Below are positions 10,391 to 30,816 of a stretch of DNA of 64,000 bases, piece after piece. Position numbers and translations under genes: made by a program. The stretch's first letter is position 1. Each line of letters begins with the position of its first letter. The notes beneath the pieces were generated by a model. It did not search any database and had not been told where the DNA came from. It saw nothing but the letters and a program-made list of their open reading frames with translations. The DNA lies in the NCBI RefSeq assembly GCF_023243045.1, contig NZ_JALKFX010000009.1, positions 24,908-88,907 on the forward strand. Direction: 5' to 3'. This DNA comes from Frankia sp. AgB32. GTDB taxonomy: Bacteria > Actinomycetota > Actinomycetes > Frankiales > Frankiaceae.

Positions 10391-10606
10391 CGCCCGTGCC
10401 CTTCCTCCCGGTCCTGCCCCGACCACGTCCCGTCGCCGGACGGTGAGTCCAACCCTGTCCCGTCTGAGCGGTGGTGTCCACGGCTGGAGGACCGCCGGAA
10501 CTGTGATTCTCCTCGACGCCGCCGGTTCCGTCGCCCAGCGCGGCCGCCCGGGGTGGCGCGGGGCAGCGGGGGTCCTCAAAAGCCTGCAACGCTGGACAAT
10601 GGAGCG

Positions 10607-11092
10607 GTGTGGGGAACCGAACCTGAACTGCTCGTCGTCCTTGATCGCCGGCGGGACGCGGACGCTCCCGGCGCCGCGGTGGACCTGACCGCGTTCGGGC
10701 AGGTGACGTCGGGCCTGGCGCCGCGGCTGGTCCTGCTGGTCGCGCCGGCCGGCCGGGCGGGGGAGGTGGCCGCGTTACCGGGGGTGTTCGCGGTGTTCGT
10801 CGACGCGGTGCCCGCCGGGCTGCGGGAGGACCTCAGCCCGGCGGAGAACCTGTTCGTCGACGGCTGGCTGACGCGCCGGGCCGGCAAGGACCGGGGCCCC
10901 GGCGACGGCCGGCCGTGGGACTCGCCGGGTTTCGAGCCGCCGGACCGGCCCGCGCCGCCCGCCGGCCCTGGGAACCCCGCCGGCCCTGGGAACCCCGCCG
11001 GCCCTGGGAACCCCGCCGGCCCTGGGAACGAGGACGGGGACGGCGCCGGCCGGCGCTGGGCGCGGGATCCGGGCGTCGACCCGGACTGCTGA
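10607..11092 (+). CDS. small hypothetical with Pro/Gly/Asn repeats
   Basis: About 161 residues. The first 105 form a compact domain (LLVVLDRRRD, APRLVLLVAP, FVDGWLTRR). The tail is low-complexity PAGPGN repeated about four times. I do not recognise it. Start taken as the GTG at 10607, where the conserved-looking part begins; an in-frame start at 10553 is possible. It is divergent from the Lon-domain gene across about 215 bp. Confidence 0.6.
   Translation: MWGTEPELLVVLDRRRDADAPGAAVDLTAFGQVTSGLAPRLVLLVAPAGRAGEVAALPGVFAVFVDAVPAGLREDLSPAENLFVDGWLTRRAGKDRGPGDGRPWDSPGFEPPDRPAPPAGPGNPAGPGNPAGPGNPAGPGNEDGDGAGRRWARDPGVDPDC
10961..11029 (+). repeat. 18-bp in-frame minisatellite
   Basis: Three exact and one partial copy of GCCGGCCCTGGGAACCCC, encoding the repeated AGPGNP unit of the hypothetical protein. 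Confidence 0.9.
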
Positions 11093-11124
11093 GCGCGGCG
11101 GGCCGTCGCGCTCCGGCGAAGTCG

Positions 11125-13317
11125 TCAGAAGACCCGGCGGGGGACGGACCAGGTCGCGCTGGCACCCGACGAGCGCCACAGCATGTGCAGCTCGTCGCCC
11201 ACCCGGGCGAGGACCTCCAGGTGGCCGTCGAAGTTGCTCTGGATCATCGAGACGGCGTCGACCTTGCCGAGGGTGGGGGCGAACGGTCGCGGCCCGCTCC
11301 AGGCGGGCGTCGACGCGCTGTTGTTCCGGTAGTAGTGGATCAACCCGCCGCCGGCGGCGGGGGTGACCACCTCGAAGTTGTGCGACCCGTCGCCGAACGA
11401 GCTCTGGATGAGCGCCGGGTTGCCGGCCACGCCCTCGCCGAAGACCGGGCCGGTCCGCCACACGGCGGTGTTGTCCCGGGTGAGGTGGACCAGGCGGCTG
11501 CCGACCCGGGCGACGGCCTCCAGCATGCCGGCGCCGCCGCCGAGCGTGCCGTGGATGAGGCTGACGGCGTCGACCTTGCCGAGGTTGGCACCGAACAGCT
11601 TCGGGGCGCTCCACGGGTAGCCGTGGACGTCGTGGTTGCGCCACAGGTGCTGCAGGCCGACGTCGGCGGCCGGGACGAGCAGCTCGAAGTTCCCCTTGGT
11701 CCCCAGCCTGCTCTGGATCAGCGACGGGACGCCGCGGACACCCTGGAACAGCGTGGTGGGCGGGTGCCAGGCGAACGCACCGGTGCTGTCCCGCCACAGG
11801 AAGGAGAGCGTCGAGCCTACCCGGACGGCGACCTCCAGCGGCCCCGGGTTGGCCAGAGTGCTCTGGATCATCGTGACGGCGTCGACCGGGCCGAGGGCCT
11901 GCGCGGTCTGCCACGGGTCGCGCCACGGGTAGCCGGTGGCGTCGTTGTCGCGCCACACGTGCGTCAGCCCGGAGAACTTCGACGGGACGACGACCTCGAA
12001 GTTGCCGACCTTCCCGAGGCCCTTCGACTGCACGAGGACCGGGTTGCCGCCCACGCCGTGACCCCAGCCGAGCTGGCTGGGGGTGTAGCGGCACAGCGCG
12101 AAGCTGTTGGAGCGCATCAGGCAGTCGGCCGGGGCGGGGGCGCAGCTGTCGCAGTTGCCGTTGGGCGTCTGGAACACGCCCCACTGGCCGCCGCAGTCGC
12201 AGTTCGCGCCGCCGTACTCGTCCGGGGCGCCGAAGATGTGCCCGGTCTCGTGGGTGAAGACCCGGTCGATGTTGTCCGGCCCCCAGCCGTCGTTGGCGTA
12301 CTGCATGACGATCCGGGGCCCGCCCACCGACGAGTACGCGAAGTAGCCGAGCGGGTATTTCGTGAAGAACGCGCAGTACGCCCAGTCGGTGCCGAGCTTG
12401 CCGCGCAGCGCGTCGACGTAGGCGTAGACCCCGTCGAAGTTCGCCGCGTAGCCGAGCCGGTCCATCGTCGGGTCCCGCCAGAGCGCCTCCAGGTCGGCGG
12501 CCTTCGGGTTGGCCGGCACGGACAGCCGCACGATCTGGATGTCGTAGTGGAACGCCAGCCCCGCCGCCGGATTGGTGGTGGCGTACCAGGACAGCCCGTT
12601 CTGCACCTCGGCGACGACCTTGGTCCGTTCGGCCGCGGAGAACTGCAGGTCCGTCGTCGGCCCCTCGACGATGACGAGCCCGATGGCCACCGAGCCCTCC
12701 AGCCGGGAGCTGGTGGGCGAACCGGCCGTTGCCGGCGTGGCGACGGCCGTGCTGTCCGGCGTCGCCAGGGTCGCGAGCGGGCTGAAGTGGTCCGCACGTC
12801 CGTTCGGGGTGACCTGGGTGTCGGCGCCGAGTCCCGGCGCGCCGCCGGACGCGCCGCGCGGCGGTGGGACGTCGGTGCAGGGCCGGTCCATGTCCCAGCC
12901 GTGGCCGTCGCGGGGCCGGTCGTCCTTGAGCCGCCGGTAGGCGGAACTCGCGCGCAGCCGGAAGGCGTCGAGACCGAGCGTCTCGGCCCGGTTGAGGCCG
13001 GGGCTGACGCCCGTGGTGGACACGACGCTGCCGTCGGCGGGGGGCAGCAGGCCGGCGAGGCCGCGTACGCCACTCGTCGCGGCCGCCGACACCTCGGGCG
13101 GCGTCGGCCGCGGTCGGCCCAGGACCCGCACGCGACCGTAGTGGTGCAGGGCGCGTTCGCCGCCCGGCGCCGCGGCGGCCGGGACGCCGTCCGGCTGGCC
13201 CGGGCCCGCGGCGTGCGCCGCGGACGCCCCCGGGCCAACGCCCGGGGTGGCGACGTCCGGCGCCACACCGGACGGGGTTATCAGCGCGCGCTCGTCAACC
13301 GGTACGTCCCCCGCCAT
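11125..13317 (-). CDS. zinc metalloprotease with C-terminal repeat propeller
   Basis: A 730-residue protein. HETGHIFGAPD at residues 356-366 gives the HExxHxxGxxD zinc site of metzincin-like peptidases. A Cys-rich stretch follows it (CDCGG, CDSC). The C-terminal 300 residues hold six alternating units built on NFEVVVP...LTHVWRDND and LEVAVRVG...LSFLWRDS, so probably a PLL-like beta-propeller for binding. The first 200 residues are low-complexity and show no signal peptide, so its export route is unclear. AAAGGA upstream supports the ATG at 13317. Substrate unknown. Confidence 0.85.
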   Translation of the reverse strand: MAGDVPVDERALITPSGVAPDVATPGVGPGASAAHAAGPGQPDGVPAAAAPGGERALHHYGRVRVLGRPRPTPPEVSAAATSGVRGLAGLLPPADGSVVSTTGVSPGLNRAETLGLDAFRLRASSAYRRLKDDRPRDGHGWDMDRPCTDVPPPRGASGGAPGLGADTQVTPNGRADHFSPLATLATPDSTAVATPATAGSPTSSRLEGSVAIGLVIVEGPTTDLQFSAAERTKVVAEVQNGLSWYATTNPAAGLAFHYDIQIVRLSVPANPKAADLEALWRDPTMDRLGYAANFDGVYAYVDALRGKLGTDWAYCAFFTKYPLGYFAYSSVGGPRIVMQYANDGWGPDNIDRVFTHETGHIFGAPDEYGGANCDCGGQWGVFQTPNGNCDSCAPAPADCLMRSNSFALCRYTPSQLGWGHGVGGNPVLVQSKGLGKVGNFEVVVPSKFSGLTHVWRDNDATGYPWRDPWQTAQALGPVDAVTMIQSTLANPGPLEVAVRVGSTLSFLWRDSTGAFAWHPPTTLFQGVRGVPSLIQSRLGTKGNFELLVPAADVGLQHLWRNHDVHGYPWSAPKLFGANLGKVDAVSLIHGTLGGGAGMLEAVARVGSRLVHLTRDNTAVWRTGPVFGEGVAGNPALIQSSFGDGSHNFEVVTPAAGGGLIHYYRNNSASTPAWSGPRPFAPTLGKVDAVSMIQSNFDGHLEVLARVGDELHMLWRSSGASATWSVPRRVF

Positions 13318-13491
13318 GCGTGATCGTTGTCCTTTCGAGGCGAATGGCTGTGCGGAGTTGTATCGCGTTGCGGCGCCGTTGTGTCGCGTTTGGTGGAAGC
13401 GGGCACGTCCGCTACCGATCCGAGGTATTTGAGCCGCCTCGCCGGTCCCGCGGCGGTCGGTTCTCCCCGTCGGCGCCCGCGGCGCCGTGGA

Positions 13492-13692
13492 TCAGCGGCC
13501 CGGCGGCATACCGGGAGTGGCCGAGGGTGCGTCCGACCAGGCCGAGCCGACCGCGGAGCGTTGCTGCGAGCCCATGGACTCGGCCACCTTGCGCATGATC
13601 GCTTCCACCAGTCGCACGGCCTCGGCCGTCGCGAGGTTCAGCACGATCTCCGAGTCTCCGGCGACCTGAAAGCGCACCGACACGTCCGCCAT
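13492..13692 (-). CDS. 66-residue conserved-looking small protein
   Basis: Starts with MADVSVRFQVAGDSEIVLNL and has a predicted amphipathic helix (EAVRLVEAIMRKVAESM). The tail is disordered. A strong ribosome-binding site (AGGAAGGGG) precedes the ATG at 13692, which is why I prefer it to the much longer frame running antisense through the NIF3-family gene. I do not recognise it. Its composition is less extreme than that of its neighbours. Confidence 0.6.
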   Translation of the reverse strand: MADVSVRFQVAGDSEIVLNLATAEAVRLVEAIMRKVAESMGSQQRSAVGSAWSDAPSATPGMPPGR

Positions 13693-13848
13693 GACGAGTT
13701 CCCCTTCCTCGTGGCTCGCTCCCAGTCGGGCGCGTCGCCATCGGTACGTTACGGGGCGAAGGAGACGTTGCGCGCAGCACCTCGGCGCCACCCGATCGGG
13801 TGTGACCGGCTGGCAGACGGCCGCGACGGTCCGGGTAGGGTCACCGTG

Positions 13849-14781
13849 ATGAACGCTGGGTTGGCAACGGTCCGTGACTGCATCGCGGTGCTGGAGGAGG
13901 CCTACCCGCCCGGCTGGGCGCAGTCCTGGGACGCGGTGGGTCTGGCGGCCGGAGACCCGGACGCGCAGGTGGCCGCGGTGCACTTCGCCGTCGATCCCAC
14001 CCCCGAGGTCGCCGCCGAGGCGGTGGCGGGCGGCGCGGGGCTGCTGGTCACCCACCATCCGCTGTTCCTGCGCGGGGTCCATGGCGTCGCGGAGACGACG
14101 CCAGGCGGACGGGTGGTGGCGAACCTGGTCCGCGGCGGGGTCGCGCTGTACACCGCGCACACCAACGCCGACGTCGCCGACCCCGGCGTCAGCGACGCGC
14201 TCGGCGCCGCGCTCGGACTGCGCGACCTCCGCTCCCTCACCGATGCCGACGCCGGCACTGGCACCGACGCCGGCACTGGGACCGACGCCGGCACTGGCAC
14301 CGACGCCGGCACTGGCACCGACGCCGGCGACCGGCCCGCGGCGAACGGCGCCGCGGTGTGCCGGGGGCTTGGCCGGATCGGCGAGCTGCCCGTGCCCGAA
14401 CCGCTTGGCGAGTTCTGCGCCCGCGTCGCCCGGTCGCTGCCGTCGACCGCGGGGGGCGTGCGCGCCACGGGGCCGGCGCAGCGGCTCGTGCGGCGGGTGG
14501 CGGTGTGCGGTGGCTCGGGTGGCGAGCTGGCCGGCGCCGCGGCGGCCGCGGGCGCGGACGTGCTGGTCACCGCGGACGGCCGGCACCACCACGTGCTCGA
14601 CGCGGTCGGCGCGTATCCGGTCGCGATCGTCGACGTGGCCCACTGGGCGAGCGAGTGGCCGTGGTTGGCCGTGGCGGCCGCGCGTCTGCGCACGGGTCTG
14701 CGAGCGCGGGGACGTACGGTGAGTGCGTCGGTGTCCGCTATCGTGACCGATCCCTGGCGGTTGCACGCTCCGTCCCGGTAG
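13849..14781 (+). CDS. NIF3/DUF34-family dinuclear metal-centre protein
   Basis: A 310-residue member of the Nif3-like family (often called GTP cyclohydrolase I type 2; true role uncertain). Metal-ligand motifs visible are THHPLFLRG, YTAHTNAD and, near the C-terminus, VDVAHWASEW. An in-frame minisatellite inserts GTGTDA repeats between the two halves at about residues 133-161. The ATG at 13849 sits directly after an in-frame GTG. It is followed 42 bp later by the coiled-coil zinc-ribbon gene, the usual actinobacterial pairing. Confidence 0.9.
   Translation: MNAGLATVRDCIAVLEEAYPPGWAQSWDAVGLAAGDPDAQVAAVHFAVDPTPEVAAEAVAGGAGLLVTHHPLFLRGVHGVAETTPGGRVVANLVRGGVALYTAHTNADVADPGVSDALGAALGLRDLRSLTDADAGTGTDAGTGTDAGTGTDAGTGTDAGDRPAANGAAVCRGLGRIGELPVPEPLGEFCARVARSLPSTAGGVRATGPAQRLVRRVAVCGGSGGELAGAAAAAGADVLVTADGRHHHVLDAVGAYPVAIVDVAHWASEWPWLAVAAARLRTGLRARGRTVSASVSAIVTDPWRLHAPSR
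14245..14331 (+). repeat. 18-bp in-frame minisatellite in NIF3-family gene
   Basis: Four full and one partial copy of ACCGACGCCGGCACTGGC; the first copy differs in its first bases. It encodes GTGTDA-type repeats in a surface loop. Confidence 0.9.
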
Positions 14782-20605: not shown

Positions 20606-23600
20606 GTGCTGCTGGAGGAACTCACGTCCGGACTGCGCCTCGACGGGCTCATCCCCGCCGAGGTCATCACGGTCCTCGCCGCGCAGTGGCATGGTTCCGA
20701 CGCGATCGAACTGACGTACAAGACCACGGCCGGTGTCCTTGGCCAGCAGGTTGTGTTCCGCAGTGACCAGGACAAGCTCAGCGTCGCTCGGGCCGGCAGC
20801 CGCGCCTTCGATGCGGTCGCAGGCGATTTCAAGCTCGCGGCCGAGGCGCAGCGCATCTCGCTGGCGGGGCTGTTCGACCCGATGCTCGCCGTGGCCACGA
20901 GTGATGTGCAGCCGTTGCCGCACCAGATCCGCGCGGTCTACGGCGAGCTTCTCCCGCGCACGCCGCTGCGATTCCTGCTGGCGGACGATCCGGGCGCCGG
21001 TAAGACGATCATGGCTGGTCTCTATATCAAGGAGTTGCTGCTGCGCGACGACGTGAAGCAGTGCCTCATCGTCGCGCCCGGAGGGCTCGTGGAGCAGTGG
21101 CAGGACGAGTTGTTCTTCAAGTTCGGCCTCCGTTTCGACCTGCTGACCAACCAGCTCATCGACTCCCAGGTCAATCTCAACGTCTTCGAGACGAATCCGT
21201 TGCTCATCGCGCGGATGGATCAGCTTTCCCGCAGCGAGCAGCTGCGGGCCCAGCTCGTCGAGACCGAATGGGATCTGATCGTCGTCGACGAGGCCCACCG
21301 CATGGGCGCGCACTACTTCGGCGGCAAGCTGCAGAAGACCAAGCGCTTCCAGCTCGGGGAGCTCCTCGGTGAGATCACCCGTCACCTGCTGCTGATGACC
21401 GCGACCCCGCACTCCGGCAAGGAGGAGGACTTCCAGCTCTTCCTCACGCTGCTCGACCGGGACAGGTTCGAGGGCCGCCAGAAGAAGACCACGGACACCA
21501 GCGGGATCATGCGCCGCCTGGTCAAGGAGGAGCTGCGCACGTTCGAGGGCAGGAACCTCTTCCCCGAGCGTGTCGCCGAGACTGTTCCCTACGAGCTGAC
21601 CGCGTCGGAGTACGCCCTCTACGAGGACGTCACCCACTATGTCCGGGAGGGGATGAACCGGGCCGACCGGCTCGGCGGAAAGCGCAAGAACACCATCGGC
21701 TTCGCCCTGACCGTTCTGCAGCGGCGGCTCGCCTCCAGCCCGGCGGCGATCCACAAGAGCCTCGTGCGCCGCTGCGAGCGCCTGGAGCGCAAACGACAGG
21801 AGATCCTCGACGGCACCTACCGCGATCCGGACACCACGGTCGAGTGGAGTGCGATCGACGCCGACGAGTTCAACGCGGAGGAGATCGAGACGCTGGAGGA
21901 GGATCTGCTCGATGCCGCCACCGCCGCGCAGACGGTGGAGGAACTGGGCGTCGAACTGCTCGAGCTGGCCGAGCTGGTGACGGCGGCCAAGGCCGTTCGT
22001 GACGCCGGCACCGACCGCAAGTGGACCGAGCTGTCGACCATCCTCCAGGACAACGCGCTGATCACCGACGGGAACGGCTGGCCGCGCAAGTTCATCATCT
22101 TCACCGAGCACCGAGACACCCTCGACTACCTCCGGGCCAGGATCGGATCGCTGCTCGGCAGGCCGGACGCCGTCCGGGCCATCCACGGCGGCGTGCGCCG
22201 CGGCGAACGCCGACAGATCACCGAGGAGTTCACCAAGAACCGCGAGGTCCAGATCCTCCTGGCCACCGACGCCGCCGGTGAGGGCCTCAACCTTCAGGCC
22301 GCCCACCTGATGGTCAACTACGACCTGCCGTGGAACCCGAACCGCATCGAGCAGCGGTTCGGCCGTATCCACCGCATCGGCCAGGAGAAGACCTGCCACC
22401 TGTGGAACCTCGTGGCCGCCAACACCCGCGAGGGCGAGGTCTTCACCCGCCTGCTGGAGAAACTCGACCAGATGCGCAAGGACTACGGCGGCAAGGTCTT
22501 CGACGTCCTCGGCGAGGCGTTCGCCGAGACCCCGCTGCGCACCCTCCTGCTCGACGCCATCCAGTACGGCGAGCGCCCCGAGGTGAAGGCGAAGATGCAC
22601 GAGATCATCGACGCCACCGTCGGGGACGGCCTGCGTGAGCTGCTCGCCGAGCGGGCGCTCGCCTCCGAGCATTTCGCCGAGGCCGACCTGCGGCAGCTGC
22701 GCGCGGCGATGGACGAGGCCCGCGCCCGCCGCCTCCAGCCGCACTACATCGAGCTGGCGTTCAAGGCGGCCCTCACCCGCCTCGGTGGCCGGATCGCCCG
22801 GCGCGAGCAGGGGCGCTACGAGATCGCGAACGTGCCCCAGCATGTGCGCTCGGCCGGCCGGGGACCGATCGCGACCAGGTACGACCGGATCACCTTCGAC
22901 CTCGGCCGGGTCCAGCCCGACGGGCTCACCCGGGCCGACCTGCTCGCCCCCGGCCACCCGCTGCACGACGCGGTCATGGACGAGACCGTCCGGCAGTTCG
23001 GCGCGGCGCTCAACCAGGGCACCGTGCTCGTGTCCTCGACCCTCGAGGAGCCACACCTGCTCGTCGGAGTCATCGAGGAGGTCACCGACGCCACCGGCGA
23101 GTCCGTGGCCCGTCGCTTCGGCTACGCCTACGTGAACAGCGCCGGCACCGTCAGTCCCGCCGGTCCCGCGCCCTACCTGGACTGCGTCGCCGCGCCCGCG
23201 GGCCCGGCGATCGCCACCGCGCGGGCTCTCCCGTGGCTCGCTGAGGCCGAGGACCGGGCGGCGAGCTGGATCATCGCCAACCGCCTGCCCGAATACCTCG
23301 CCGAGGTCCAGCCCCGCCGGCTGGCGGAGCTGACGAAGGCCCGCGAGCTGGTCACGAAACGCCTCACCGCGGAAAGCGAGCGCCTGCTGCTCGAGGCGGC
23401 GATCGCCGCGGAGAACGAGCAGAAGGGCGAGCGTCCCAGAGAATCGTCGGAAAGCCTCAACCGCAAGGCGGTCGAGCTCGATCTGCGGCTGCGCCAGCGC
23501 CTGGCGCTGCTCGACCAGCAGCAGCTCATGTCCACCAAGCCACCCCGCCTCGTCACCGCCGCCCTGGTGCTGCCCGTGAGCCTGTTCGGGGACGGACTGC

Positions 23601-24016
23601 CGCCGGCTGCGCCGATGCGCGCCAAGGAGACGAAGGAGGTCGAGCGCCGCGGCGTCGACCTCGTCCTGAGCCGCGAGCGGGAGATCGGCCGCGAACCCGT
23701 CGAGCAGGCCTTCAACAACCCGGGTTTCGACATCCTGTCCACCGACGCGAACGGCGATACCTACCGCCTCGAGGTCAAGGCCCGCCTCGCCGGTGCCACC
23801 GACTTCTTCATCACCCACAACGAGGTGATGACCAGCAAGAACGCAGCCCCCCGCTACCGGCTCGCCCTCGTCCGCGTCGACCCACGCGGCCCGCGGTACG
23901 ACGAGGTCCGCTACCTCGACGCGCCCTTCGCCACCACCGAACTCGGCGACTTCGACTCCGACGGCCTCCGCGGCAACTGGGCCAGGACCTGGGCCAAGGG
24001 GCGGCCGCCGTTCTGA
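20606..24016 (+). CDS. SNF2-family helicase with C-terminal DUF3883
   Basis: First gene of the defence cassette, 1136 residues. Superfamily 2 motifs: Walker A DDPGAGKT (127-134), DEAH (228-231), TATPHSG (motif III), and QRFGRIHRIGQ (583-593, motif VI). The last 100 residues form a DUF3883 domain (NNPGFDILSTDANG from 1037, EVKAR with Glu1056 and Lys1058, then FITHNEVM), which resembles PD-(D/E)XK nucleases and may cut or bind DNA. It likely translocates on phage or unmodified DNA. GGGGGCGG precedes the GTG. The stop shares one base with the ATG of the next gene (TGATG), indicating coupling. Confidence 0.92.
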   Translation: MLLEELTSGLRLDGLIPAEVITVLAAQWHGSDAIELTYKTTAGVLGQQVVFRSDQDKLSVARAGSRAFDAVAGDFKLAAEAQRISLAGLFDPMLAVATSDVQPLPHQIRAVYGELLPRTPLRFLLADDPGAGKTIMAGLYIKELLLRDDVKQCLIVAPGGLVEQWQDELFFKFGLRFDLLTNQLIDSQVNLNVFETNPLLIARMDQLSRSEQLRAQLVETEWDLIVVDEAHRMGAHYFGGKLQKTKRFQLGELLGEITRHLLLMTATPHSGKEEDFQLFLTLLDRDRFEGRQKKTTDTSGIMRRLVKEELRTFEGRNLFPERVAETVPYELTASEYALYEDVTHYVREGMNRADRLGGKRKNTIGFALTVLQRRLASSPAAIHKSLVRRCERLERKRQEILDGTYRDPDTTVEWSAIDADEFNAEEIETLEEDLLDAATAAQTVEELGVELLELAELVTAAKAVRDAGTDRKWTELSTILQDNALITDGNGWPRKFIIFTEHRDTLDYLRARIGSLLGRPDAVRAIHGGVRRGERRQITEEFTKNREVQILLATDAAGEGLNLQAAHLMVNYDLPWNPNRIEQRFGRIHRIGQEKTCHLWNLVAANTREGEVFTRLLEKLDQMRKDYGGKVFDVLGEAFAETPLRTLLLDAIQYGERPEVKAKMHEIIDATVGDGLRELLAERALASEHFAEADLRQLRAAMDEARARRLQPHYIELAFKAALTRLGGRIARREQGRYEIANVPQHVRSAGRGPIATRYDRITFDLGRVQPDGLTRADLLAPGHPLHDAVMDETVRQFGAALNQGTVLVSSTLEEPHLLVGVIEEVTDATGESVARRFGYAYVNSAGTVSPAGPAPYLDCVAAPAGPAIATARALPWLAEAEDRAASWIIANRLPEYLAEVQPRRLAELTKARELVTKRLTAESERLLLEAAIAAENEQKGERPRESSESLNRKAVELDLRLRQRLALLDQQQLMSTKPPRLVTAALVLPVSLFGDGLPPAAPMRAKETKEVERRGVDLVLSREREIGREPVEQAFNNPGFDILSTDANGDTYRLEVKARLAGATDFFITHNEVMTSKNAAPRYRLALVRVDPRGPRYDEVRYLDAPFATTELGDFDSDGLRGNWARTWAKGRPPF

Positions 24017-24504
24017 TGGCTCAGCCCACCACCGCGACTCTCGTCGCCGTTCTGGCGAATCCACCTCTGACTGACGGCAAGCGCACCTTGGGCCGCGTGG
24101 CGTTGGCGGGCGAGCTGCTCGGCTTCGCCGAGGTCAAGGTCGTGAACCTGTTCTCGATGCCGTCACAGGCCACTGGGGCCATCAGTGAGCTCGGCGCGAC
24201 CGCCGAGGGTTGGCTAACGGCAAGACCCTCACTGGACGTAGCGCTCGCCGGGGCGGACGCCGTCCTGCTCGCCTACGGTGCGACGTCTCCCTCCGGCTCG
24301 GCCCGCACTCACTTCCGTGAGCAGGTCGAGTGGCTGCACAGCCGCCTCGATGAGTGGGCCGTGCCGGGTTGGCAGGTTGGTGATGGTCCGCGACATCCGT
24401 CTCGGTGGCAACGCTGGACCAGCCGGGAGCACCCTGACGTCCCGTTCGCCGAGGCGGTGCGACGCAGCCTCGTCCCCAAACTGCCCCAGATGTCCCGGCT
24501 CTGA
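24016..24504 (+). CDS. DUF1643 protein in defence cassette
   Basis: 162 residues. LVAVLANPPLTDGKRTLGR at the start, EVKVVNLFSMPSQ, AVLLAYGA, and GDGPRHPSRW near the end match the DUF1643 pattern (NP, NLF, G-H-P). These are small alpha/beta proteins of unknown activity, often on mobile elements. The ATG overlaps the helicase stop by one base, so the two should be made together. A 167-bp gap follows, with a TAGATT at 24591-24596 that could be a -10 element for the next gene. Confidence 0.8.
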   Translation: MAQPTTATLVAVLANPPLTDGKRTLGRVALAGELLGFAEVKVVNLFSMPSQATGAISELGATAEGWLTARPSLDVALAGADAVLLAYGATSPSGSARTHFREQVEWLHSRLDEWAVPGWQVGDGPRHPSRWQRWTSREHPDVPFAEAVRRSLVPKLPQMSRL

Positions 24505-24671
24505 GCAGCCGGATCTGTCTGTCCTGATGCCTCCCGTGAATCCCGTCTTCGGTCACCGAGGCCAGTTCATCCTTGCTCGTGCCTGATCGCTAGATTCGGG
24601 ACTGCGAGTCAAGAGGTTGGATGTTGCCTTGTCGTGACCTCCGCGGGGGCTCAGAGGGTAGAGGGAAGTAC

Positions 24672-27434
24672 GTGCAGAAGCGAAAGCTGATCGAGGTGGC
24701 GCTGCCGCTGGAAGCGATCAACCGGGAGTCCGCCCGGGAGAAGTCCATCCGGCACGGACATCCCTCCACGCTCCACCTGTGGTGGGCGCGGCGGCCGCTC
24801 GCGGCGGCCCGAGCGGTCCTGTTCGCCCAGCTCGTCGATGACCCGAGCGCGCGGCCCGAGGAGTTCCCCACCGAGGAGCTGCAGCGCAAGGAGCGTGAGC
24901 GGCTGCACGGGCTCATCGAGCGACTCGTCATCTGGGAGAACATCCGGGACGAGAAGCTCCTGCGGGAGGCCCACGAGGAGATCCTGAAGTCCACGAACGG
25001 CAACCCGCCGCCGATCCTGGACCCCTTCGCCGGCGGCGGCACCATCCCCCTGGAGGCCCAGCGGCTGGGCCTGGAGGCCCACGCCTCCGACCTCAACCCC
25101 GTCGCCGTCCTCATCAACAAGGCGCTCATCGAGATCCCGCCAAAGTTCCGTGACCAGCCCCCCGTCTATCCCGGTTTGGCTGACTCCGAGATCCGTGCCT
25201 GGAAGGGCGCCGAGGGCCTCGCCGCCGACGTGCGCGCCTACGGTGCCTGGATGCGCGACGAGGCCGAGAAGCGCATCGGCCACCTCTACCCCAAGGCGAC
25301 CCTCCCCGACGGCACCAAGGCCACCGTCATCGCCTGGATCTGGGCCCGCACCGTCACCTGCCCCAACCCCGCCTGCGGCATCGAGATGCCCCTGGTCCGC
25401 TCCCAGTGGCTCGGCAAGAAGAAGGGCAAAGAGGCGTACGTCGTCCCCACCGTCGTCCCCGATCCCACCCACCCCTCAGGGCAGCGGGTCGAGTTCACGA
25501 TCGGACACGAGAAGCACGCCGCGCCGACTGCCGCGACGGACGGGACAGTCTCGAAGACCGGTGCGCGATGCGTGGCCTGTGATGCAGCGGCGGACTTGAA
25601 ATTCGTACGTGCTGAAGGCCGCGCCAAGCGCCTCGGTGCCCAGCTCATCGCCGTGGTTGCGGAAGGTAACCGTCGGCGGATGTACCTCGCCCCAACCAGC
25701 GAACACGTCCTGGCTGCTGCCATGGGGCGACCTGACGATGTGCCCGAGGCGTCCCTCCCGGTGGAGGCCCTTGGCTTCCGGGTCCAGGCCTACGGCATGA
25801 CGGAGTGGGCCGACCTGTTCACCAACCGCCAGCTCACCGCCCTGACCACCTTCAGTGACCTGGTCTCCGAAGCCCGAAATCGTGTCCTTGCCGATGGTAG
25901 TAGCGACGGGTACGCCGATGCCATCGCTACCTACCTCGGTTTTGTCGTGAGCCGCCTAGCTGATTATCAGTCATCGATCACGACGTGGGCCAGCAATCCG
26001 CAGAAGGAAATTCTGCGGAATATCTTCGCGCGGCAGGCGATCCCGATGACCTGGGATCACGCGGAGGGTAACCCGTTCGCCGACGGCTCGGGAAGTCTTG
26101 TAAGAATGACGAATGCCGTCGCCGAAGCAACGGAGCGTCTCGACGGATGCGGTCATGGTGTGGTGCGGCAGCGTGATGCTGTCCAAGCGGTGTCAGCACC
26201 CGTCCTAATTAGCACCGATCCGCCGTATTACGACAACATCGGCTACTCCGACCTGTCGGACTTCTTCTACGTGTGGTTGCGCCGGTCGCTGCGCGAAGTA
26301 TATCCAGATCTCCTGGCGACGCTACTGGTACCGAAGGCGGAAGAACTTGTTGCGAACCCGTTCCGCCAGGGCGGCAAGGGGGGTGCGCAGAGATTCTTCG
26401 AGGACGGCTTCCGTCGGGTCTTCGCGCACGCGCGGGAGGTCGCGCGAGACGATGTACCGATTACTGTCTGGTACGCATTCAAGCAAAGCGATGCCGATGA
26501 TGCCGGCGAGGCATCAACAGGCTGGGAGACCCTGCTTGAGGGCATGATCCGGGCAGGCTGGTCAATCACGTCGACTTGGCCGAGCAGGAGCGAGCGGAGT
26601 GGCCGCATGAGGGATGTCGGCTCTAACGCTTTGGCCTCCTCGATCGTGCTGTCGCTGCGCCCTCGAACCGAAGGGGCTCCGACGACGGATCGGCGTGGCT
26701 TCATCGGGGCGCTGGAGGCCGAGTTGCCCGACGCGCTACGCAAGCTTCAGCAGGGGCAGATTGCGCCCGTGGACTTGCCGCAGGCGGCGATTGGGCCGGG
26801 GATGGCGGTTTTCAGTCGCTATGGCGCCGTGCTGGAGCCCGACGGCAAGAAGATGACAGTTCGGTCCGCGCTGGCCCGGATCAATGAGATCCTTGACCAG
26901 GTGCTGGCGGAGCAGGAAGGCGACTTCGATTCGCCTTCCCGCTTCGCGATAGCATGGTATCGCCAGCACGGGTACGGGGTGGGTGTGTTCGGCGACGCTG
27001 ACAATCTCTCCCGGGCTCGCAACACGAGCGTCGACGGGATGGATCGAGCGGGCATCCTGTCGAGTCGGGCTGGCGTCGTGCGGCTCGTCAGGCCCGCCGA
27101 CCTGTCGTGGGATTACGACGTGCGCAAGGATGGCCACGCCAGCAACTGGGAGGTGCTCCATCACCTGATCAAGGTGCTGGAGCGGGACGGCATCACGCCA
27201 GCGGGGGAGTTCCTCCAGGTGGCGTTGGGTCGGACGGATGGAGCTGTTGATGCTGACCTGGTCAAGGAGCTTGCGCATCTTCTCTTCCGGGTCGCGGAAA
27301 GCAACGGCTGGACGAAGGACGCGCTGAGCTTCAACAGTCTGGTGACAAGTTGGCCGGAGATCCTCGACGTCGCGCGCATACTGAAGAAGCCCACGGAGAC
27401 ACAGTTCGCGATCGAGTTCGACGAGGACGAGTGA
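24672..27434 (+). CDS. DUF1156 zinc-ribbon DNA methyltransferase (COG1743)
   Basis: 920 residues. The N-terminal DUF1156 part contains HPSTLHLWWARRPLAAARAVL. Motif I is DPFAGGGT at 117-124 (SAM binding) and motif IV is DPPY at 516-519, the signature of adenine-N6 or cytosine-N4 methylases. Between them are zinc-ribbon cysteines: C230/C235 and C300/C303. Predicted to modify host DNA and mark self. The GTG at 24672 has GAGGGAAG upstream; an in-frame ATG at 24621 is the alternative. The first 800 bp use almost only G/C-ending codons. From about 25490 on the third positions are much more mixed, so the gene looks mosaic. Confidence 0.9.
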   Translation: MQKRKLIEVALPLEAINRESAREKSIRHGHPSTLHLWWARRPLAAARAVLFAQLVDDPSARPEEFPTEELQRKERERLHGLIERLVIWENIRDEKLLREAHEEILKSTNGNPPPILDPFAGGGTIPLEAQRLGLEAHASDLNPVAVLINKALIEIPPKFRDQPPVYPGLADSEIRAWKGAEGLAADVRAYGAWMRDEAEKRIGHLYPKATLPDGTKATVIAWIWARTVTCPNPACGIEMPLVRSQWLGKKKGKEAYVVPTVVPDPTHPSGQRVEFTIGHEKHAAPTAATDGTVSKTGARCVACDAAADLKFVRAEGRAKRLGAQLIAVVAEGNRRRMYLAPTSEHVLAAAMGRPDDVPEASLPVEALGFRVQAYGMTEWADLFTNRQLTALTTFSDLVSEARNRVLADGSSDGYADAIATYLGFVVSRLADYQSSITTWASNPQKEILRNIFARQAIPMTWDHAEGNPFADGSGSLVRMTNAVAEATERLDGCGHGVVRQRDAVQAVSAPVLISTDPPYYDNIGYSDLSDFFYVWLRRSLREVYPDLLATLLVPKAEELVANPFRQGGKGGAQRFFEDGFRRVFAHAREVARDDVPITVWYAFKQSDADDAGEASTGWETLLEGMIRAGWSITSTWPSRSERSGRMRDVGSNALASSIVLSLRPRTEGAPTTDRRGFIGALEAELPDALRKLQQGQIAPVDLPQAAIGPGMAVFSRYGAVLEPDGKKMTVRSALARINEILDQVLAEQEGDFDSPSRFAIAWYRQHGYGVGVFGDADNLSRARNTSVDGMDRAGILSSRAGVVRLVRPADLSWDYDVRKDGHASNWEVLHHLIKVLERDGITPAGEFLQVALGRTDGAVDADLVKELAHLLFRVAESNGWTKDALSFNSLVTSWPEILDVARILKKPTETQFAIEFDEDE

Positions 27435-27435
27435 G

Positions 27436-30400
27436 ATGGCGCTGAGCAACCGCGACCGCATCGACCGGATGTTCCAGATCCTTGCCCCGACGCTGGACGA
27501 CTTCATCTCGTCGGTGATCGGTCAGGATGACCAGGCGCTGGGGGCCGAGTGGACGAAGCTGGTCCAGGCGAAGGACGTCAAGAACGGCGCGTCCGCGACC
27601 AAGGGCTATGACCCGCTCGACCCGCAACTCCAGTTCCGCATGCTCACCGAAGGCAACATCACAGGCGGCCACAAGCCTGGCTGGTATCCGTTCAACCAGG
27701 TCGTCGGGCGGGCCGGCGAGACCTACGCCAGCGAGCTGCGCGAGGCGCGCAATGACTGGGCGCACAACCGGCCGTTCACCGACGACGACGCCTACCGTGC
27801 GCTCGACACGGGGGAACGTCTTCTCAAGCTCATCAAGGCCAACGCTGAGGCCGACGCGGTCGGTGGCATCCGGCAGAACCTGCGGCGGGTGACCGCCGAC
27901 AAGGATGATCGGAGGGTTCTCAAGGCCGCGGTCGTCAACCCGGAGTCCACCGGGCTCAGGCCGTGGCGCGAAGTGCTCCAGCCCCACGACGACGTCGCCA
28001 CCGGCAACTTCCACGCCTCCGAGTTCGCCGCCGACCTCTACAAGGTCGCCACCGGCGGCGAGGTCGACTCCGACTATGCCGACCCCGTCGAGTTCTTCCG
28101 GCGCACCTACCTCACCGAAGGTCTGCGCGACCTGATCGGCCGCGCTGTGCGGCGGCTGGCGGGTGACGACAACGCCTCGCCGGTGATCAACCTGCAGACC
28201 AACTTCGGTGGCGGCAAGACCCACTCGATGCTGTCGCTGTGGCACGTGGCCGCCGGGCTTCCTGTGGGCGAGTTCCCGCAGGAGACCCAGGAGCTGCTCA
28301 CGACCAACGGCTACCAGGGCACCAGGGTGAACCGGGTCGCGATCGTGGGCAACCACCTCAGCCCGTCCGGTGTCACCAAGGACGATGGCACCCACGTCAA
28401 CACGATGTGGGGTGAGCTGGCCTGGCAGCTCGGCGGCGCCAAGGCGTACGCCCTCGTCGCCGCGGCGGACAGCGACCGCACCCACCCCGGCGAGGCGCTC
28501 CACACGCTGCTGGCGACGTACGCGCCCGCCGTCATCCTGATCGACGAATGGGTCGCCTACGCCCGCTCCCTCGTCGGTCGCGACGACCTGAAGGGCGGCA
28601 CGTTCGACGACCAGTTCACCTTCGCCCAGTCACTGACCGAGGCGGCCAAAGGCACCTCGGGTGTCCTGCTTGCGATCTCGATCCCTGCCTCGGAGACCGG
28701 TGACGACACCGAGATCGTGGTCGGAAGCGCCGAGGAGGTCGGCGGCGCCAACGGGCTTGAAGCCCTGAAACGACTGCAGAACGTTGTGCGCAGGGTCGCC
28801 GACCAGTGGCGCCCGGCGTCGTCGGACGAGGCGTACCACATCGTCCGGCAGCGGCTGTTCAAGCAGCCGGACGCCGCCGCGCTCGCCGCGATCGGCGCGA
28901 CCGCCAAGGCGTATGTGGAGCTGTACCGCAAGTACACCGACGACTTCCCGCGCGAGGCGCGCGACAACTCCTACGAGATGCGCCTGCGGCGCACCTACCC
29001 GATCCACCCGGAACTGTTCGATACGCTGTACGAGGAATGGTCCTCGCTGGAGCGCTTCCAGCGCACCCGCGGTGTGCTGCGGCTGATGAGCACGGTGATC
29101 CACGCGCTCTGGACGGGCGAGGACGCCTCGCCGCTGATCATGCCTGGTTCGATCCCGCTCGCCACCGCGAACGTGAACGCCGAGCTGACGCAGTACCTCC
29201 AGGACTCCTGGAAGGCGATCATCGACGCCGATGTCGACGGCCCGAACTCCGAGCCGGCGCGCATCGACAAGGAGAAGCCGCTGTTCGGCCAGCGGGCGCT
29301 GACCAGGCGACTCGCCCGCACGGTGTTCTTCGGCGCCGCCCCGACCGTCGCGCCCGGTTCGGTGCACAAGGGCATCGGCACCCAGCGGGTCTTCCTCGGC
29401 ACGGCGATCCCCGGCGACGTCCCCGGCAACTTCCACAGCGCGCTGACCCAGCTCGGCGACCGGGCGACGTACTTCTACTCCGGCTCCGGCAAGTACTGGT
29501 ACGACCTCCAGCCCAACATCACCCGTACCGCCAAGGACCAGGCTGAGCGCCTCCACAAGGAAGACGTGTGGAAGGAGATCGTCACGCGGCTGCTCGGCCA
29601 GGGCCGCGTGAAGGGCGACTTCGCCGGCGTCCACGTCTGCCCGCAGACCGACGCCGACCTCCCCGACACGGCCGAGGCGCGCCTGGTCATCCTCCATCCC
29701 AAGTACGCCCACAAGCGGGGCAGCACCGATTCGGACGCCAGGAACTTCGCCCAGCAGGCGACCGAGCATCGCGGCAGCGCCAACCGGTCCAACCGCAACA
29801 TGCTCGTCTACCTTGCCCCCGACGAGGCCCGGCTGGAGGAACTCGACACCGCCACCCGCGACTATCTCGGGTGGAAGCACGTCCTCGACAACGAGGCCGA
29901 CCTCGACCTGACCCAGAACCAGAAGAAGCAGGCCACCCAGCGCCAGACCCAGGCCGACCAGACCGTCACGGCCAGGCTGCTGCAGACCTTCGTCTGGGCG
30001 CTCGTCCCGGCCCAGCCGGTACCGAAGCAGCCTTTCGTCCTGCGGGAGATCAAGGTCGAAGGTCAGTCGACCTCGCTCGCCGAGCGGGTGTCCCGCCGTC
30101 TCGGAAGCGACGGCGATCTCTCGACGCGGCAGGCCGCGTCGACGATCCGCCTGGCGATCAGCAAGGTTCCGGAGATCTGGAAGGACGGGCACGTCTCGCT
30201 CGGTGCCCTGTGGGGGCTCTGCTGCCAGTACCCCTACCTGCCTCGCCTGCGCGACAGGACGGTCCTCGACGCCGGCATCGTCGATCTGCCGCTGCTCTGG
30301 CAGACAGATGCCTTCGCCCTCGCCACCGGCTACGACGAGGCGGCCGGCCGCTACGTCGGACTGTGGCTACCCGAGGACAAGACCGCCGCGCCGGCGGCCA

Positions 30401-30816
30401 CCGACTCGCTGCTCCTGGTACAGCCCGAGGTTGCCCTCAAGCAGCGCGCCGCCGAAACCCCGCCGACGCCGGGTCTGGGAGAGACCCCGGGCGTGGGCGG
30501 GGGCGTGGGCGTTGACGTGGACAAGGACGACGCGAAGAAGCAGTTCAGGAAGGACGCCGACCACGACGGTGTCTACCGCCAGGTCAAGAGGCGGTTCTAC
30601 GGGGTGAAGACCCTGAACCCCGAGAAGATCGCCCTTGACTTCAAGAACGTCTCCGACGAGATCATCGCCAACCTTCGCCGGGACGGCACTGAGCTCGCCG
30701 TGAAGATCGAGATTGAAGCGACGATGAGCGGTGGTTTCGAGGAAGGCCAGGTCCGCACCGTCTCGGAGAACGCCCAGACCCTGAAGTTCGATCAGTCGGG
30801 CTTCGAGGAGGGCTGA
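27436..30816 (+). CDS. Swt1-type HEPN / DUF499 AAA ATPase
   Basis: 1126 residues, ATG one base after the methyltransferase stop. Residues 1-130 form a Swt1-like HEPN domain with RNDWAH at 105-110, the intact R-x4-H motif of HEPN ribonucleases. The rest is DUF499 (COG1483): Walker A-like NFGGGKTH (256-263) and Walker B VILIDE (366-371). A low-complexity Gly/Val linker near residue 1020 leads to a small C-terminal beta domain. The ATPase probably senses the state of DNA together with the helicase and methylase, and the HEPN part could act as an RNA-cutting effector (inference). It is the last gene of the cassette. Confidence 0.9.
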   Translation: MALSNRDRIDRMFQILAPTLDDFISSVIGQDDQALGAEWTKLVQAKDVKNGASATKGYDPLDPQLQFRMLTEGNITGGHKPGWYPFNQVVGRAGETYASELREARNDWAHNRPFTDDDAYRALDTGERLLKLIKANAEADAVGGIRQNLRRVTADKDDRRVLKAAVVNPESTGLRPWREVLQPHDDVATGNFHASEFAADLYKVATGGEVDSDYADPVEFFRRTYLTEGLRDLIGRAVRRLAGDDNASPVINLQTNFGGGKTHSMLSLWHVAAGLPVGEFPQETQELLTTNGYQGTRVNRVAIVGNHLSPSGVTKDDGTHVNTMWGELAWQLGGAKAYALVAAADSDRTHPGEALHTLLATYAPAVILIDEWVAYARSLVGRDDLKGGTFDDQFTFAQSLTEAAKGTSGVLLAISIPASETGDDTEIVVGSAEEVGGANGLEALKRLQNVVRRVADQWRPASSDEAYHIVRQRLFKQPDAAALAAIGATAKAYVELYRKYTDDFPREARDNSYEMRLRRTYPIHPELFDTLYEEWSSLERFQRTRGVLRLMSTVIHALWTGEDASPLIMPGSIPLATANVNAELTQYLQDSWKAIIDADVDGPNSEPARIDKEKPLFGQRALTRRLARTVFFGAAPTVAPGSVHKGIGTQRVFLGTAIPGDVPGNFHSALTQLGDRATYFYSGSGKYWYDLQPNITRTAKDQAERLHKEDVWKEIVTRLLGQGRVKGDFAGVHVCPQTDADLPDTAEARLVILHPKYAHKRGSTDSDARNFAQQATEHRGSANRSNRNMLVYLAPDEARLEELDTATRDYLGWKHVLDNEADLDLTQNQKKQATQRQTQADQTVTARLLQTFVWALVPAQPVPKQPFVLREIKVEGQSTSLAERVSRRLGSDGDLSTRQAASTIRLAISKVPEIWKDGHVSLGALWGLCCQYPYLPRLRDRTVLDAGIVDLPLLWQTDAFALATGYDEAAGRYVGLWLPEDKTAAPAATDSLLLVQPEVALKQRAAETPPTPGLGETPGVGGGVGVDVDKDDAKKQFRKDADHDGVYRQVKRRFYGVKTLNPEKIALDFKNVSDEIIANLRRDGTELAVKIEIEATMSGGFEEGQVRTVSENAQTLKFDQSGFEEG

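Follow-up and report, generated by a model that had tools for sequence, protein, structure and literature searches.

In the window, the whole stretch of 64,000 nucleotides of Frankia DNA that was analysed, four genes lie on the forward strand in the order HmaA, DUF1643, HmaB and HEPN-HmaC. HmaA (20606-24016; PADLOC HmaA, 1258.9 bits; Pfam Helicase_C, SNF2 and NOV_C) is an SNF2 helicase that carries a NOV_C domain at its C-terminus, HmaB (24672-27434; PADLOC HmaB, 1065.7 bits; Pfam DUF1156) is a DUF1156 N6-adenine methyltransferase, and HmaC (27436-30816; PADLOC HmaC, 880.4 bits; Pfam HEPN_Swt1 and DUF499) is a DUF499 ATPase with an N-terminal Swt1-like HEPN domain. These genes make up an Hma operon, a known system that received its name in PMC8565338 and was renamed Type-1 BREX-related system in PMC12839542; an antiphage role is predicted for it. 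It shares with the described systems the helicase-nuclease HmaA, the DUF1156 protein HmaB, the HEPN-fused DUF499 ATPase and the same-strand arrangement; a C-terminal nuclease was reported for about 79% of the helicases and an N-terminal HEPN domain for many of the ATPases (PMC12839542). Unlike these systems, the window operon contains an additional DUF1643 gene between HmaA and HmaB. In a full-text search, 13 papers have DUF1643 in their main text, and these two are not among them; the first part of the auxiliary-effector section of PMC12839542 does not contain it either. The start of HmaB, as judged from aligned relatives, is probably the conserved GTG at 24672 and not the first ATG of the open reading frame at 24621; with this GTG, 167 bases lie between DUF1643 and HmaB.

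The DUF1643 gene and its junction with HmaA

The DUF1643 gene (24016-24504, forward strand) starts with ATG and encodes a protein of 162 residues. According to the initial annotation, one base is common to this ATG and the stop codon of the helicase, and this is correct: the junction reads TGATG (24014-24018), with the HmaA stop codon TGA at 24014-24016 and the DUF1643 start codon at 24016-24018. As the genes overlap, DUF1643 would be translated in coupling with the helicase-nuclease. The base composition by codon position fits the coding frame (GC3 0.80), and dN/dS is about 0.2 among three Frankia copies (dN 0.039-0.104, dS 0.18-0.53); the gene is not a chance open reading frame. The gene in this position is under purifying selection.

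The protein matches PF07799 (DUF1643) with 25.0 bits and an E-value of 2.2e-5, above the curated Pfam cut-off of 22.5 bits, and it matches the functionally uncharacterised phage family phrog_3230 with an E-value of 2.3e-5. It belongs to a distinct DUF1643 subfamily that ends with RHPSRW, and profile-profile comparison relates this subfamily to canonical DUF1643 with 97.9% probability (E-value 4e-13). The motifs of the family, NP, an Asn at strand 2, A(W/Y)G and HP, are present, together with the family fold. The codons of N15-P16-P17, the motif after strand 1, lie at 24058-24066 (alignments A1 and A4; N15 and P16 are invariant in A4), the codon of the invariant N44 at the end of strand 2 lies at 24145-24147 (A1, A4 and the structural model), and the subfamily signature R126-HPSR-W131 is encoded by 24391-24408 (A1, A3 and A4); within it, H127-P128 is invariant across the whole sample of the DUF1643 family (A1, A3 and A4). 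Canonical DUF1643 proteins (PF07799, phrog_3230) share the motif order NP, Asn, WG/YG and HP with the window protein, as well as the fold found by structure search. However, their identity to the window protein is only about 20%, they end with RHPLY instead of RHPSRW, and they have an N-terminal YRYxLxRxW element that the window protein and its subfamily lack. Judged by its sequence, 24016-24504 thus encodes a divergent DUF1643 protein and not a canonical member.

The HmaA-HmaB slot in other Hma operons

The initial annotation had named the absence of DUF1643 from all other copies of the cassette as a refutation, and this does not apply. In six other Hma operons, which come from several genera of actinobacteria, a DUF1643 gene occupies this slot as well. 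The overlap by one base is found in all seven slot loci, five times as TGATG and twice as TAATG. In four close relatives that have no DUF1643 gene (L039, L044, L046 and L051), HmaA also ends with TGATG, and there the ATG starts HmaB. Since HmaA couples straight to HmaB in these loci, DUF1643 appears to have been slotted into the junction, and insertion into a pre-existing HmaA-HmaB coupling junction is the simplest reading. The slot DUF1643 proteins form a single clade (support 92/91), and the HmaA genes of the slot loci cluster in a quick tree (SH-aLRT 89) with two exceptions inside the cluster, L048, which has no DUF1643, and L017, which has another one. The slot DUF1643 has therefore mostly been inherited together with HmaA. 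DUF1643 would have entered the junction of an ancestral operon in a single event and would then have been passed on, for the most part, along with HmaA.

An HmaB-like gene was found in 28 of the 393 genomes of the class sample, and 23 Hma loci from this unbiased sample could be placed in the HmaA tree. DUF1643 of any kind is present in five of these 23 loci, and in four of them it occupies the HmaA-HmaB slot. Two weak hits in the class sample (G210 and G283) were judged false and excluded, and a fragment of 40 residues (G548) was not counted. Screening 342 genomes from a different order with a profile yielded three additional slot loci (L164-L166); as they had been found via DUF1643, they were left out of the slot frequency. 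The different DUF1643 of L017 is not in the slot but downstream of HmaC, and a run of N at 12798-13500 separates it from HmaC, so that their linkage rests on scaffolding. DUF1643 is not a core Hma gene, as most Hma operons do not have it. The fixed place in a defence operon that had been proposed at the outset is thus real in one Hma clade, with a conserved coupling, but it does not extend to the cassette as a whole. The expectation that such a place would give DUF1643 a role went too far, as position alone yields no activity; what the fixed, overlapping slot does is to turn a domain without an assigned role (PMC9226611) into a question that can be addressed by knock-out in a single operon.

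Further genes occur within or next to Hma operons. In L007 (Frankia sp. QA3; 10492-14282), DUF1643 and HmaB lie apart: the additional DNA between them measures about 4.7 kb and includes a gene for an SF1-type helicase of 902 residues. L040 has a CBASS-type oligonucleotide cyclase between HmaA and HmaB (12515-13579; PADLOC, 511 bits), and the slot therefore also takes other defence genes. A GmrSD-like gene is located between HmaB and HmaC in L166 (13125-14981), L039 (6723-8582) and L046 (12344-14167), and after HmaC in L164 (16564-18396; Pfam GmrSD_N) and L165. Transposase-like open reading frames interrupt HmaB in L046 (10072-11734) and L051 (9422-10978), and on visual inspection these look like insertion sequences. 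Inteins were considered for the split HmaB genes and rejected, because the frame is closed across the insert and the halves are separated by the transposase-like open reading frames.

DNA methyltransferases beside the RHPSRW subfamily

The initial annotation had proposed to count how often DUF1643 accompanies DUF499 or DUF1156 genes. For the RHPSRW subfamily, the association reaches beyond Hma to other methylation-based defence systems. Eight of 22 sampled subfamily loci are Hma loci, three are of the BREX type, three combine a GHKL ATPase with a methyltransferase, and two carry PbeA/PbeC. The others are represented once each: Zac, a type III-like restriction-modification system, a methyltransferase with Hypoth_Ymh, a D12 methyltransferase, a group of conjugative Arthrobacter-type plasmids with two methyltransferases, MTaX1 and AAA_5, and a viral contig with a methyltransferase. 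The BREX-type loci carry BrxC, PglX, the BrxH helicase, PglZ and BrxA; these genes were profiled in L018, and L163 and L020 were assigned to the group by clustering with L018. The kinds of neighbouring methyltransferases include N6_N4 and D12.

An automatic scan for DNA amino-methyltransferase motifs, blind to the locus labels, showed that 17 of the 22 subfamily loci have a DNA methyltransferase at a distance of no more than about 10 kb. The scan was negative in all 12 chromosomal loci with a canonical DUF1643 and in all 20 windows that had been placed at random in genomes from the same samples. In these 12 loci, canonical DUF1643 thus does not share the association. When the Hma loci are removed, 9 of 14 loci remain positive versus 0 of 20 random windows (Fisher p 4e-5, an optimistic value, as the loci partly share ancestry). 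The subfamily is associated with methyltransferases, and this association is the best-supported claim of our analysis. The window DUF1643 would accordingly be classed as an accessory gene of methylation-based defence, with its part in defence inferred from this company. In the literature searched, there is no earlier report of a DUF1643 subfamily beside methylation-based defence. The RHPSRW subfamily would be an accessory that different methylation-based defence systems of actinobacteria can reuse, and the pattern suggests an overlooked accessory module that is common to several of them; it also gives this branch of DUF1643 its first testable context.

The diversity of these contexts could also be expected of a hitchhiker, a gene that lodges in mobile elements and defence islands but has no functional link to Hma. 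Canonical DUF1643 would agree with such behavior, as it is frequent in viral contigs, with at least 584 matches there, and has been reported as cargo of an ISL3 element (PMC13231603) and in staphylococcal cassettes (PMC12540322). However, a hitchhiker would hardly be found with the same slot and overlap in seven loci of several genera, be co-inherited with HmaA, remain under purifying selection and be strongly enriched beside methyltransferases relative to canonical loci and random windows, and we regard this explanation as unlikely. Even less probable is an origin from a phage or mobile element with a function in regulating or dampening restriction, that is, an anti-restriction protein turned regulator. 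The frequency of the canonical family in viral contigs would be in line with such an origin, as would the single viral contig in which a subfamily DUF1643 gene directly precedes the open reading frame of a DNA methyltransferase (L153, 7971-9481), but this is the only viral contig with a member of the subfamily, and none of 50,697 phage records contains one.

The constant proximity of DNA methyltransferases could likewise mean that DUF1643 assists the modification module without being catalytic: it would bind HmaB or DNA and tune the choice of targets, or it would keep the helicase-nuclease off self DNA. A comparison of two loci of one genus (L164 and L165) fits with this, as DUF1643 and HmaB look as if they had been swapped as a block: the HmaA proteins are 96.6% identical, DUF1643 53% and HmaB 76%, and at the boundary of HmaA and DUF1643 the identity of the nucleotides drops from about 95% to about 50%, within the final 150 bases of HmaA, to rise again in HmaC. 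These sequences suggest a joint exchange of DUF1643 and HmaB in this case. However, in a Frankia pair (L072 and L008), the target-recognition part of HmaB differs beside DUF1643 proteins that are 93% identical, and joint exchange is therefore not the rule. In addition, the conserved polar residues of DUF1643 look pocket-like, which speaks against this explanation. We consider a non-catalytic partner to be a possible but somewhat unlikely explanation.

Fold, conserved residues and a possible enzyme function

AlphaFold2 gave confident alpha/beta models for the window protein (pLDDT 85, pTM 0.82), with a Rossmann-like fold, and for a phage DUF1643 protein (pLDDT 90, pTM 0.87). The comparison of the predicted fold, which had also been proposed initially, was productive within the family, as an annotated DUF1643 protein ranks first among the viral structural matches (probability 1.00, TM 0.59). 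A Foldseek search of the PDB with both models gave no match with an E-value of 0.001 or better. The matches that Foldseek and VIA returned for both models were middling and unspecific, a sequence search of solved structures with three queries gave nothing convincing, and no Pfam enzyme family matched the subfamily. Among the structural neighbours of the window model are nucleoside 2'-deoxyribosyltransferases/DNPH1 (Z 6-6.7), and the phage model has one uracil-DNA glycosylase (UDG) as neighbour (Z 5.6, rmsd 4.1 over 145 residues); unrelated folds score equally in both cases.

The residues that are invariant in 37 sequences of the subfamily and of phage DUF1643 (A4) include N15, P16, N44, G88, H127 and P128, and in the model the invariant residues occupy the ends of strands 1, 2, 3 and 4 or the positions immediately behind them. 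This order resembles that of UDGs, with N/D-P after strand 1, Asn after strand 2, G after strand 3 and H/N-P after strand 4; the raw median spacings of the motifs are 29-32, 42-44 and 36-39, versus 38, 40 and 34 in UDG family 4, and are thus shorter for the first interval and close for the other two. Together with the structural neighbours, the residue layout suggests, as a working guess, an enzyme that processes bases or nucleosides. Membership in the UDG superfamily, at which motif order and topology hinted, is not supported, as the profiles of four UDG sets (UNG, Mug, family 4 and pooled UDG) gave hhalign probabilities of 4.4% at most, and none of 35 family members matched PF03167. Hits to nucleoside 2-deoxyribosyltransferases in Actinomycetota were too few for a control profile.

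The explanation that we tentatively favour is that DUF1643 is a clade-specific accessory of the Hma operon, slotted in once, and most likely a small Rossmann-like enzyme that acts as an extra effector beside the helicase-nuclease. The conserved Asn, Asn and His-Pro residues would then process a nucleobase, a nucleotide or modified DNA of the invader. A more far-reaching version, which we think is rather improbable, is that the whole RHPSRW subfamily represents a shared effector module, an unrecognised glycosidase-like enzyme that attacks bases or nucleotides and that was recruited by Hma, BREX, Pbe, Zac and restriction-modification-like systems, perhaps to counter phages whose modified DNA lets them evade methylation-based restriction. 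To regard DUF1643 as glycosidase-like is speculative and derives from the conserved residues and the modelled fold, whose layout resembles that of base/nucleoside glycosidases. In its proposed action as a small alpha/beta base-acting enzyme in defence, and in this respect only, the window protein would resemble the defence DNA glycosylases Brig1 and Brig3 (PMC11078745, PMC13160076); it has no detectable sequence homology to the UDGs tested.

A gene of the UDG family was seen at one subfamily locus, on plasmid pASPHE301 (L154, 10068-10613), where it adjoins the locus with two methyltransferases; two small genes separate it from DUF1643, which is located downstream. Its PF03167 match has 23.2 bits, slightly below the cut-off of 24.3, and by its sequence it is a candidate for a Brig-like defence glycosylase.
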